A stretch of 64,000 nucleotides of DNA from Artemia franciscana (lineage: Eukaryota; Arthropoda; Branchiopoda; Anostraca; Artemiidae), in the NCBI RefSeq assembly GCF_032884065.1, contig NC_088866.1, positions 32,046,019 to 32,110,018 of the forward strand. The letters are read 5' to 3'. The notes below the pieces were generated by a model. That model had not been told where the DNA came from and did not search any database. It saw only the letters and a program-made list of their open reading frames with translations. Positions 8,745-16,395 of this stretch are shown in pieces. How positions within the stretch are numbered: the first letter of the stretch is position 1; each line of letters starts with the position of its first letter. A program made the translations under genes and the position numbers.

Positions 8745-8833
8745 GTTTGCTATTAGATCTCACCTATATAGAGCTCTACATTTTTATCTTAATTAGCCAA
8801 CTAGTAAGCTAATATTAGACTTATATATATATA
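8745..8833. repeat. Palindromic satellite, left end (before the Helitrons)
   Basis: Two diverged cores of the TAGCCAACTAGTTGGCTA type (at 8735-8754 and 8795-8813) with the same spacer words (ATCTCACCTATATA) as the array at 11913-12690. The tandem Helitrons are inserted in the TA-rich spacer that follows. Confidence 0.7.
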
Positions 8834-9162
8834 CTAGCTGTTAGGGTGGCGCTTTGCGCCACCCCAACACCTAGTTGGTGGGGCGCTTCACGCCCCCCAA
8901 GCCCCCCGCGCGTAAGTCATTATGCGCCATAATAGTTACGTGCCATTGTAGTTGTGTCCCTGTGTCCCACCTGTGAATAGAGATAGATATAAATATATGT
9001 TTTTAACTACGTAAAACATGCGAATATACAACATTCTTCGCTGTCCCATTCTCTGTGTATATAAATAGATTGTCAGGTTTACTGACTCTTGAACATGCAA
9101 CGTATAACTGTCCATGGGAAAAACAATCCGTATTCAGATCTATTCCTCATTATTCTAATGAT

Positions 9163-9560
9163 GCGTCCCTGTGTCCCGGTCGTCATTTATATTCCCTGTG
9201 TCCCGGTCGTCATTTGTGTCCCGGTGTCCCAGTTTGTAATTTCTCTTTGAGTGTTCCGGTCGTCATTTATATTCCCTGTGTCCCGGTCGTCATTTGTGTC
9301 CTGGTGTCCCGGTCTGTAATTTCTATTCGAACAATCCCTGTGTCCCGGTCGTCATTTATATATCCCGCCTGTGCCCCCGGCGTCCCCGTTGTAGTTGTGT
9401 CCCTGTGTCCCGGTCGTCATTTATATTCCCTGTGTCCCGGTCGTGATTTGTGTCCGGATGTCCCAGTCTGTAATTTCTCTTTGAGGTTCCCGGTCGTCAT
9501 TTATATTCCCTCTGTCTCGGTCGTCATTTGTGTCCCGGTCTGTAATTTCTCTTTGAGTGT
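9163..9560. repeat. Minisatellite inside Helitron copy 2
   Basis: Variants of GTCCCGGTCGTCATTTATATTCC and GTCCCAGTYTGTAATTTCT alternate with a spacing of about 35-60 bp. The same array is found in copy 3. Confidence 0.85.
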
Positions 9561-9667
9561 TTTTTCTTTTTAGTTTTTTACCTTTTTTCTTTTTTCAGTT
9601 TTCTTTTTCTTCTTTATTTTTCAGCGTCACTATGATGTACATATCGCCGAACCTTTGTTTTTTTAAC

Positions 9668-10018
9668 TTAAATCTGGTAGGCATTGATGACCTTATGCAA
9701 GTCTAAATCCCAAACCCAATCAACATCGCTATCATTTTCAGTTTTGTTATGTTTTGACTCTCGCTATCCAGGTGGATTTTTATCTAACTGCGCGGTTTTG
9801 CGTTCTTTAGCCGCAAGCCTGTTTTCTTGCTGTTCTTGTGATTCCTCGGCACGCTTTCTTTTCTTACTTTCTCTATCAGCCGCAAGCCTGTTTTCTTGCT
9901 GTTCTTGTGATTCCTCGGCACGCTTTCTTTTCTTACTTTCTCTATCAGCAGCAAGTGTTTTGGCATAGACACTTTGAGCAGCTTCCTCGGCTGTTACCGT
10001 TGTAGGTTCTTCAGTCAT
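9668..10018 (-). pseudogene. Small STPR-repeat ORF of Helitron copy 2
   Basis: The frame starts at MTEEPTTVTAEEAAQ and has exactly 117 codons including the end stop (TAA at 9668-9670). It is closed early by a TAG at 9764-9766, so only 84 residues are open. It contains 23-residue repeats of the RESKKRKRAEES type followed by an acidic, tryptophan-rich tail (DSDVDWVWDLDLHKV). The N-terminal part is homologous to the start of the RepHel protein at 55823; the tail is not found there. The homologous frame in copy 3 has the same length but a different stop. Such 23-residue basic repeats resemble STPR DNA-binding repeats. A function as a regulator or competitor of RepHel is conjecture. Confidence 0.6.
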
Positions 10019-10066
10019 TTTACAATTACAAATTTTTCCGTGAACAAATGTCTTAAATACCTTTAA

Positions 10067-10138
10067 TGACGTCATCGTCATAACAAACATGACGACAACT
10101 AACTTCATGACGTCAGTCGACACACAAACATGACGTCA
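10067..10138. promoter_or_regulatory. CRE/ATF-type palindrome cluster (Helitron copy 2)
   Basis: Perfect TGACGTCA at 10067-10074, 10108-10115 and 10131-10138, located 49-120 bases upstream of the small-ORF ATG. The first two are 41 bp apart, the same spacing as the first two sites in copies 1 and 3. Confidence 0.6.
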
Positions 10139-10677
10139 CTCGACACACACACACACACAGAGAGACAACTTATTTATATATATATATATATATATATATA
10201 TATATATATATATATATATATGTATATATATATATATATATATATATATATATTTATATATATATATATATATATATATATATATATAGACTAGCTGTTG
10301 GGGTTGCGTTTCGCGCCCCCCAAAGCGCCCGCGCGCGCAAGTCTTTACGCGCCATTGTAGTTGTGTCCTTGTGTCCCACCTGTGAATATAGATATATATA
10401 TATATATATATATATATATATATATATATATATATATATATATATATATATATATATATATATATATATATATATATATATATATATATATATATATATA
10501 TATATATATATATATATATATTTAACTACGTAAAACTTGCGAATGTACAACATTCTTGGCTGTCCCATTGTCTGTGCATATAAATAGATTGTCAGGTTTA
10601 TCGACTCTTGAACATGCATCATATAACTGTCCATGGGAAAAACAATCTGTATTCAGATCTATACCTCATTATGATGT

Positions 10678-13979: not shown

Positions 13980-13997
13980 TCCTACAGAATAAAAAGG

Positions 13998-14527
13998 AGA
14001 GCTACAGTAGCGTTTGCCTCAAGATTGCTTAGTTAGACTGAGAGACAATACTATCAGATGGAGAAAGAGTTGTTGGCCATAAAGTTTGCCTGCAAGGACT
14101 TTCATCAGTACTTGTTTGGTCGAAAAGACTTTGTTACAACAGACCACAAACCCCTGGAACCTATCCTTAGCAAGGCAATAAACAGCACCCCACCAAGGCC
14201 TCAGCGTATGATGTTAGCCATCCAGCCTTATGACCTGACAATCCACTACAGACAGGGAAAAGAAACACCTGTGGCAGATATACTCTCCTGCTCGCACTTC
14301 CCTGATATGGATAAGGAAGCTGCAAGCAAGGGAGAACTAGCCATACACACTTTCTTCCAACTGATAACAATCACAGAAAAAAGAATGGAGCATATATGGC
14401 AGGAATCAATCCAAGATGAGGAACTGATCATATTGATGCAGGTCATAGAAAATGGTTGGCCTGAAAACCAAAAAGATGCCCCATCTCAACTACCCCTTAA
14501 TGGAACTACTGAGATGAGTTGGTCATG
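13998..14527 (+). pseudogene. Ty3/gypsy RNase H domain remnant
   Basis: MEKELLAIKFACKDFHQYLFG (from 14058) with TTDHKPLEPIL and HYRQGKETPVADILS identifies the RNase H that follows RT in gypsy polyproteins. The start, ATVAFASRLLS, precedes it after an in-frame stop. The RT that should lie upstream is deleted. Confidence 0.8.
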
Positions 14528-14574
14528 AATAATGGGCTCATTCTCAAAGGGCTGTCATTCTCAAAGCGCTGAGG

Positions 14575-15312
14575 TCGGAAATGTTGAGGCAACTCCACTC
14601 ATTACACTTGGAAATTTTAAAAACAAAGGAGAGAGCCAGAACTGTCATATTTTGGCCAAATATTGCTGGAAATATTGAGAAAATGATCAACACCTGTGTT
14701 ACTCCCTGCCAGTTCCGAAACAGGCAACAAAAAGATCACCTAACTAACATGGAAATACCTTTATACCCTTTCCAGCATGTTGGAGCAGATCTGTTCACAT
14801 TTAGAGGTCAAGAATACCTTATCACCACAGACTACTACAGCCAACGGTTTGAGATTGATAAGTTGACTTCAACCACCTCATTCCAGGTAATCAGCAAACT
14901 CAAGGTGCATTTTGCACGTCACGGTTTCCCAGAAAATATGACAACCATTAACGGCCTGCAGTTTTCATCACAAGAATTCAAAACGTTTACATCAAGCTGG
15001 AGCATTGAAAATGTAATACCAAGTCCACAATATCCTCAGGCAAATGGCCTTAGCAAGAAGGCTGTCAAAATAGCCAAGTGCATCATGGTAAAGGCAGTGG
15101 ATAGCAGGACAGACCCATACATGATATTGCTAGAATTCCAGAACACCCTGGTCAACAGAGCCCACTCACAAGCTCAACTGTTGATGAGCAGACAGCTGCA
15201 CTCAGTATTACCAGTTCTACCACAAGCCCTATACACCAAACTGGTAGATAGTTCAACATTTACAGAATCCAGAAGGAAAGTTCAGCTGAAGCAGAAAACT
15301 GCATACAATTGA
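14575..15312 (+). pseudogene. Ty3/gypsy integrase remnant, catalytic residues lost
   Basis: An open frame of 243 residues begins in the zinc-binding region (HSLHLEILKTKERAR, VIFWPNIAGNIEKMI) and continues through the DDE core (GADLFTF, then TINGLQFSSQEF, then PQANGLSKKAVK). In the family the second Asp sits in a DNGPQ-type motif and the Glu in a NGxAER-type motif. Here both positions are changed, so the enzyme would be inactive although the frame is long. The C-terminal part continues with stops to about 15500. Confidence 0.8.
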
Positions 15313-15520
15313 GGATCAAGGAGAGCAACAGAGGTCAACCCAAACCAGAAAGTGTGGGTAAAACTTTCTGAGGACTCAAAATGGGAAAAAGCAACCATCA
15401 AGAAAAAATACAATAAAACCCCTTGATCCTACAACTTCTCCCTCGAAAGTGGAGACATCTTCAGACAAAACAAGAGGGATATAAGACCTTGGTATGAATT
15501 CGCCTCATCCACAACATATG

Positions 15521-15995
15521 ATGGGTAACAAATAGGCACTGCTGACACCATACCACCCATGGGGCAATCACTTCAAGCATCTAAGCCAGATAAACAAACC
15601 TCAATCAAGTTTGTCACAGAAGACACCTGGAGTAGCACACCACTGCAAATTCAAGCTCCTACTTGACCCACTCCAACCACAAGATTCAAAGATTCAAACT
15701 TACTCTTTGCAGACAAAGAGTATGTTTGGGAATAAGAGGGTAAATATTCTGCTGGTCTTCTTTCATTCAGCAAAAAGAATATATTATAGGTAAAGTTTAT
15801 TTTTCTTACATTATGTCTTCAAATTGGCAAGGTTTTTTTCTCCTATACAATTTAAAGCTAAGAAAGCCAGACAATATTTTTTTTTTGAGTAGCAGAAACA
15901 GAATTGTTTAATGAAACACTGGCAAAAAACAATGCTGGCTAAAAAATGACAGAAATGTAATAATTTGGTGGGACTTTCTAAAACAAAAAGAATAA
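15521..15995. other. No recognisable gene
   Basis: Possible remains of the gypsy 3' region, too decayed to define, followed by AT-rich sequence up to the inverted satellite arm. Confidence 0.4.
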
Positions 15996-16395
15996 ATAGT
16001 GAGATAACCAACTGGTTAGCTAATTCTGCTGTATAAGCTATTAGAAACTATATTGATAGCTAACTATAAGGCCACTTCAGGCTGAAAGGTATATTTAGGT
16101 GAGACTTTAATAGCCAACTAGTAAGCTAATTTTTTAAGTACATTAGGAGTTTTATCAATAGCTGACAAGTTTGCTATTTTAAGCTTAAGTTTATATATAC
16201 ATGGAATAATATAGCCAACTAGTTAAGTAATTCTATAAAGTATATACAGTTCTCTTATTAGCTGACTAGTTGGCTAATTCAGACTGAAGTGAATATTTAG
16301 GTGAGATATAATAGCCAACTGGTTGGCTAATCTAAATATGTAGAACTTTGGATACTTTATTGATAGCTGACTAGTTAGCAGTTCACCATACACAT
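15996..16395 (-). repeat. Palindromic satellite, right arm (inverted)
   Basis: The reverse complement aligns with 11913-12690 over cores and spacers, for example the stretch with CAGTTGGCTAWTAYATCTC and the stretch TAAGAGAACTGTATATACTT. The two arms therefore point toward each other and enclose about 3.3 kb. Confidence 0.85.

Follow-up and report, generated by a model that had tools for sequence, protein, structure and literature searches.

Inverted arrays of palindromes in Artemia franciscana: a probable foldback-type DNA transposon

How does an array of short palindromes come to stand in opposite orientations on the two sides of a dead gypsy element? The question is raised by a stretch of Artemia franciscana DNA (the window: 64 kb, C4:32046019-32110018 of the 1.27-Gb genome; below, C-numbers denote contigs and L-numbers other loci of the same genome), in which an initial annotation had seen a palindromic satellite arranged as a foldback. 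We conclude, with good though not full confidence, that the window holds one degraded copy of a non-autonomous DNA transposon, which is dispersed through the genome and belongs, as a structural class, to the foldback type.

The palindrome lattice

What is the repeated unit? Matches to the core TAGCCAACYAGTTGGCTA with up to 3 mismatches number 30 on the two strands together, that is, 15 sites, and within the window all of them lie at 8735-16329. Shuffling gave a mean of 0.04 matches and reached 30 in 0 of 100 shuffles, which rules out a chance origin. The core is 18 bp long and returns every 47-55 bp, five times per 251 bp, just as had been proposed in rounder figures; between 11962 and 12369 the steps are 53, 47, 54, 47, 50, 54, 47 and 55 bp. 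The distances within 290 pairs of neighbouring cores, drawn from 33 loci, have peaks at 47, 50, 53 and 54 bp (the near-duplicates L019, L021, L022 and L031 were left out here, as in the comparison of tip and core below). The consensus 251-bp unit has long spacers of 35, 36 and 32 bp and short spacers of 29 and 29 bp. Of the long spacers, two out of three exceed all of 2000 shuffles in self-complementarity, and the array is therefore partly a lattice of nested dyads. L024 has a simpler form of the unit, which repeats about every 101 bp.

The left and right arrays are inversely related. The complementarity between positions 11951-12080 and 16211-16340 is 88% over 130 nt; for a second pair, 12231-12350 and 16193-16312, it is 86% over 120 nt. 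The initial annotation had the array at 11913-12690 reversed at 15996-16395: the inversion stands, but the limits do not, as the left array ends at about 12391 and the right arm at about 16381.

Are the cores better conserved than the sequence between them? Column conservation is 0.876 in the cores and 0.693 in the spacers (229 unit hits, 33 loci), with two cut edge cores set apart; counted as spacer, they bring the spacer value to 0.727. Loci L009-L028 are 20 places in contig order that were picked by an exact core match. Because this choice favours conserved cores, the comparison was repeated without them, and at 17 loci not so picked it gave 0.873 for cores and 0.704 for spacers (104 hits). 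Palindromes conserved in this way are plausible sites for a dimeric DNA-binding protein, for which there is close precedent. By analogy with the Galileo transposons, we consider them most likely to be binding sites of a dimeric transposase.

Parts, ends and their order across the genome

Do arrays elsewhere stand only head to tail, which would make the inverted pair in the window a local inversion? They do not. The genome was searched with the array, with two parts found between the arrays (a conserved block, body C, and an interior I) and with the tip plus its subterminal stretch. Body C matched 29 pieces, interior I 32 and the tip with its subterminal stretch 31; the array query gave 94 rows from the best 40 of 141 candidates. 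With the weakest left out, 79 of the 94 rows entered a count of 34 array clusters, and 74 entered the count of part order, for which parts were clustered within 8 kb. Eleven of the 20 rows left out of the order count sit within stronger matches on the opposite strand, as palindromic units predict. Palindromic units match both strands, which likewise confounds unit identity within and between loci, and nothing is built on that comparison.

One order recurs: a + terminus and a + array, then body A, interior I and body C, and after them a - array and a - terminus. Relative to the interior, and among the parts listed, arrays are + on the left in 9 of 9 clusters and - on the right in 7 of 7, while termini are + on the left in 7 of 7 and - on the right in 4 of 4. 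Since C9:30074109 and C90 (L029 and L031) are one segmental duplicate with shared flanks, we also counted that pair once, which leaves 8 left arrays, 6 right arrays and 6 left termini. Where no interior is listed, the terminus lies outside an array of the same strand in 8 of 8 clusters, and C11:13400712-13401782 reads tip(+), array(+), array(-), tip(-). Loci L029-L032 each read array(+), A, C, array(-), and at these places interior I was located between A and C; by eye, the junctions of array with A and of C with array stay in register. Body A adjoins the array in eight loci (L009, L011, L012, L014, L028, L029, L030 and L031). By the array query alone, both orientations are present in 5 of the 34 array clusters and one orientation in the other 29. 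The foldback layout is thus borne out, and a local inversion is rejected: the same parts recur elsewhere in one fixed inverted order. The family has long inverted arms of tandem subrepeats; its copies are scattered, with common ends and flanks that are unlike by eye; arm length and interior vary, from the C11 copy without a listed interior to the differing inserts of the window, L030 and L031. The inverted pairs with different interiors that the initial annotation had suggested looking for are present, enclosing interior I and, in L030 and L031, reverse transcriptase (RT) genes.

Might the arrays instead serve a host protein that binds DNA as a dimer, as a functional or insulator-like satellite whose inverted layout is incidental? 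Palindromic cores, better conserved than their spacers and set at a few fixed steps, are what such a satellite would show. A transposon, however, is what would give one fixed, inverted order, with the same ends and interior, at scattered places, and the arrays are interrupted by insertions and mostly 70-86% alike between loci (among the best-scored matches). We regard host sites as an unlikely explanation. The family itself is worn and apparently old.

What marks the ends of the foldback-type element? The recurrent end GGGATACCACCAGATGGCTAA sits outside the arrays, and the common end GGGATACCACCAGATGGCTAATAGAAAATAGTACAGTTTA, or its variant GGGATATCCACCATACAGCTAATATAAAATAGTATAGTTTA, meets flanks that are unlike by eye. 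In a full copy the conserved end reads GGGATACCACCAGATGGCTAATAG... or, in the variant, GGGATATCCACCATACAGCTAA..., the two tips being given also as GGGATACCACCAGATGG and GGGATATCCACCATAC. A profile search with the tip drifted into the array (569 matches); only rows starting at the tip were used, and these were cross-checked separately. In 12 of 18 termini, or 11 of 17 once the duplicate is dropped, the best palindrome found from +41 to +130 inside the tip begins at +88 to +94; in 7 of those 12 the core reads exactly TAGCCAACTAGGTGGCTA. Among the other termini the best core starts at +67 (L037), +101 (L041), +105 (L034), +114 (L045, with 4 mismatches) and +130 (L042); the L035 terminus has no palindrome of note between +41 and +130.

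Sequences resembling the ends were also met elsewhere. At 2680-2881 of L029, inside the interior, a tip-like sequence is followed some 200 bp on by an inverted sequence like GGGATACCACCAGATG; the same pair is present in L013, L014, L023, L030 and L031, and one member of it in L012, L026, L032 and L037. The ancestor seems to have harboured a small nested element of its own kind. Four loci (L010, L022, L018 and L019) hold one perfect core and zero or one more within 4 mismatches, and L010 and L022 have about 120 bp of subterminal region in common, 74% alike. As autonomous relatives L010 and L022 were set aside, their longer frames being RT-like by eye, and so was L018, which has one frame with a weak RVT_1 match below the Pfam cut-off.

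Several observations weigh against the element as described. One orientation and no listed interior is the state of 21 of the 34 array clusters, so that many of these are half-copies or stray arrays; three of them (L009, L011 and L028) have body A on the inner side, as half-copies would show. The opposite tip was sought in four loci and not found: with 20 shuffles for each locus, L025 scored 19.5 where the best shuffle reached 23.0, L012 16.0 against 20.5 and L023 20.0 against 23.5, and in L033, where 24.0 exceeds the 22.5 of the shuffles, the match looks like array sequence. No copy read has both tips intact, and therefore no target-site duplication was seen. The offset of the core near +90 is a count made without a control comparison. 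The likeness of tip to core is weak: when the first tip is shuffled 5000 times, 41 of the shuffles match the core as well as the first tip itself does, and 3786 as well as the second; the notion of the tip as a degenerate core was not kept. The conservation columns and the overlapping hits are not independent, and gene conversion or the profile search itself could also yield conserved cores. Core spacings are not whole 10.5-bp turns, and helical phasing was considered and not kept. Finally, no transposase was seen among the open frames listed, and no search aimed at transposases was made.

Some of these points are shared by another explanation, in which a satellite was inverted locally or duplicated segmentally, without transposition. 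The one-sided clusters speak for it, as does the fact that no target-site duplication was read, there being no two-tip copy among those examined; the C9/C90 pair, whose flanks are shared, is plainly a segmental duplicate. But the two-sided order and the ends recur where the outside sequences differ by eye, and independent inversions would not preserve order and register. We judge this explanation improbable, a little more so than that of host sites.

Passengers and the copy in the window

To which part does the gypsy sequence belong? In the window gypsy lies between the two arrays, and these might be the long terminal repeats (LTRs), or a flanking part, of an odd retrotransposon. The gypsy stretch keeps remains of RNase H and of the zinc-binding part of integrase (Pfam scan), and there is no LTR pair for it among the direct repeats listed. 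A genome search with its RNase H-integrase part gave 43 rows, from which 20 other copies or pieces of 146 to 1282 bases were placed; the placement omitted the window's own row, second pieces of copies already listed (3) and rows at or below 110 bits (19). The nearest listed element part is 0.94 Mb away from any of the 20 (the listed arrays being the best-scored only), and two of the pieces are on contig C6, which holds no listed element part. An array stands beside 0 of the 20 examined, and the interiors of the two-arm copies L029-L032 have no gypsy match. On the other side there is one weak row left out of the placement, C14:912696 (68% over about 160 bases), some 6 kb from the array C14:918772; this row probably comes from a remote relative of gypsy. 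Ownership of the arrays by gypsy is rejected on these counts and has, in our view, next to no probability. The gypsy is a later passenger, foreign to the element; the reading in which it forms part of the element is not supported, as its family lies elsewhere apart from listed arrays and other copies carry interior I or other passengers.

Those passengers differ from copy to copy. L030 contains an RT gene recognised by Pfam (RVT_1), and L031 one recognised by eye from its open frames. Outside the inserts, the A, I and C of L030 and L031 contain a single frame of at least 80 codons; it has 80 codons and runs from the end of I in L030.

How, then, is the copy in the window built? Its parts stand in the order left arm, body A, gypsy, body C, right arm (table 1). 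The left arm lacks a recognisable terminus, the outermost 90 bp or so, and its alignment with L014, L023, L029 and L038 begins at 8672, 8660, 8692 and 8714, respectively. The Helitron-like insertions, assigned to a strand by eye according to their hairpin and CTAG end, sit in a TATATA spacer and split the arm; once joined, the flanks align in register with the left arms of L014, L029 and L038. Most of 8745-11912, at first taken for array, is this inserted sequence, and 12393-12690, likewise assigned to the array, belongs to body A, a different conserved block with two cores. In the inner left arm cores start at 11924, 11962, 12015, 12062, 12116, 12163, 12213, 12267, 12314 and 12369, and in the right arm at 16005, 16057, 16111, 16159, 16212, 16259, 16312 and 16364. 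The window copy has thus lost both recognisable tips, carries a Helitron-like pair in its left arm and has gypsy in place of interior I.

Table 1. Parts of the element copy in the window and the sequences inserted in it.
Feature	Position	Strand	Remarks
Left arm, outer part	8660..8830	+	degenerate first core at about 8660; clear cores at 8735 and 8794
Two related Helitron-like insertions with TA microsatellites	8831..11906	-	foreign to the element; 90% alike over about 1 kb
Left arm, inner part	11907..12391	+	array of 251-bp units
Body A	12393..12948	+	conserved block; subrepeats of about 480 bp; cores at 12565 and 12619
Gypsy passenger	12949..15706	+	degraded, Ty3/gypsy-type; occupies the place of interior I in other copies
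Body C	15707..16000	+	conserved block; joins the right arm in other copies
Right arm, inverted array	16001..16381	-	outer terminus not recognisable

The window holds further features. At 34593-38396 (+) is a LINE-type element whose long frames have, by eye, CCHC-like, endonuclease-like and RT-like stretches; its first frame has no Pfam match, and in kind the element resembles the insert at 3010-7379 of L031. At 50874-55865 (-), with repeats to 56188, there is one frame of 1663 codons from stop to stop, whose scanned part has PIF1 helicase domains; it apparently belongs to a Helitron that is nearly intact. Within this frame a tandem repeat of 69 bp resembles by eye the 69-bp repeat of the insertions at 8831-11906. 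A frame with a full FtsJ methyltransferase domain at 2187-3212 (-) is probably a host gene. Two arrays, at 45451-47223 and 62524-63524, have units of about 283-288 bp and seem by eye to be related.

Predicted binding and comparison with known systems

What might the arms do? A full copy consists of a conserved end, about 90 bp of subterminal sequence, long inverted arms of palindrome lattice and the interior A-I-C. A transposase supplied in trans would cut at the ends of the element. Its dimers would bind the palindromes, of which the first usually stands some 90 bp inside the tip and the others follow along the arms, and these sites would have been multiplied to raise the recognition of the ends, as in Galileo; unequal exchange among units would let the arms grow and shrink. 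More tentatively, and with the odds somewhat against it, the arms may be an amplified lattice of such sites, copied at fixed spacings (47, 50, 53 and 54 bp) from the 18-bp palindrome near +90, so that a transposase or a repressor form of it coats the whole arm over up to dozens of sites. If so, foldback arms would be binding platforms rather than mere hairpins.

The term satellite fits the family in part. Its arrays are the dispersed arms of an element, and a satellite-looking array can be dispersed in this way; in L024, at 6255-8694, 101-bp palindrome units also form a longer, interrupted head-to-tail run, perhaps a satellite-like growth out of an element arm.

Foldback-type elements are already known, and why they have long arms of subrepeats is an old question. 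FB of Drosophila and TU of the sea urchin have long inverted arms made of subrepeats that are short direct repeats, whereas the family described here has a lattice of palindromes. This family stands out by an unusually clean and regular 18-bp palindrome as the subrepeat of the arm. Among the papers listed in literature searches, which covered titles and abstract openings, none was named as a foldback element with a palindrome lattice, and among those listed for two half-site strings of the core there was no title on such a repeat.

Excerpts of published reports permit a closer comparison. In Tm1, which is a Mutator/Foldback family known from root-knot nematodes, most target-site duplications are 9 bp long, and one group has a putative transposase (PMC3169594). 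Neither feature was seen here, where no copy read has two tips and no search aimed at transposases was made. Mutator/MULE foldbacks as a class are marked by target-site duplications of 8-10 bp and a Mutator-type transposase. Tetris, a foldback transposon of Drosophila virilis, has copies without transposase, and its authors did not find an autonomous partner (PMC4079207). In each arm of Tetris, tandem repeats make up the inner domain and a separate domain lies outermost; the repeat unit is partly like this outer domain, and the repeats of its terminal inverted repeats (TIRs) can expand into satellite-like arrays (PMC4079207). By description the window family is similar, with inverted arms, an outer end domain and inner tandem repeats. 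The units differ: those of Tetris measure about 220 bp and share about 94% identity, whereas ours form a 101/251-bp lattice of 18-bp palindromes, mostly at the lower identity given above.

The closest tested precedent in the literature consulted is Galileo, of the P superfamily, which has long, internally repetitive TIRs (PMC3688188, PMC3573991). Its 18-bp footprint lies at +63 to +80, and further sites in the tandem repeats of the TIR bind in gel shift; sites in the repeats of Foldback and Phantom were called untested as of 2013 (PMC3688188). By description the likeness is close, for the window family too has an 18-bp core near the end, at about +90, and more cores in the arm. Galileo's transposase is known and its sites have been footprinted and gel-shifted, whereas our family is known from its sequence. 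Autonomous copies in the P superfamily have a P-type transposase with a THAP domain. With a clean core near +90, repeated at fixed steps, it offers a simple test case for the function that Galileo suggests for such arms.

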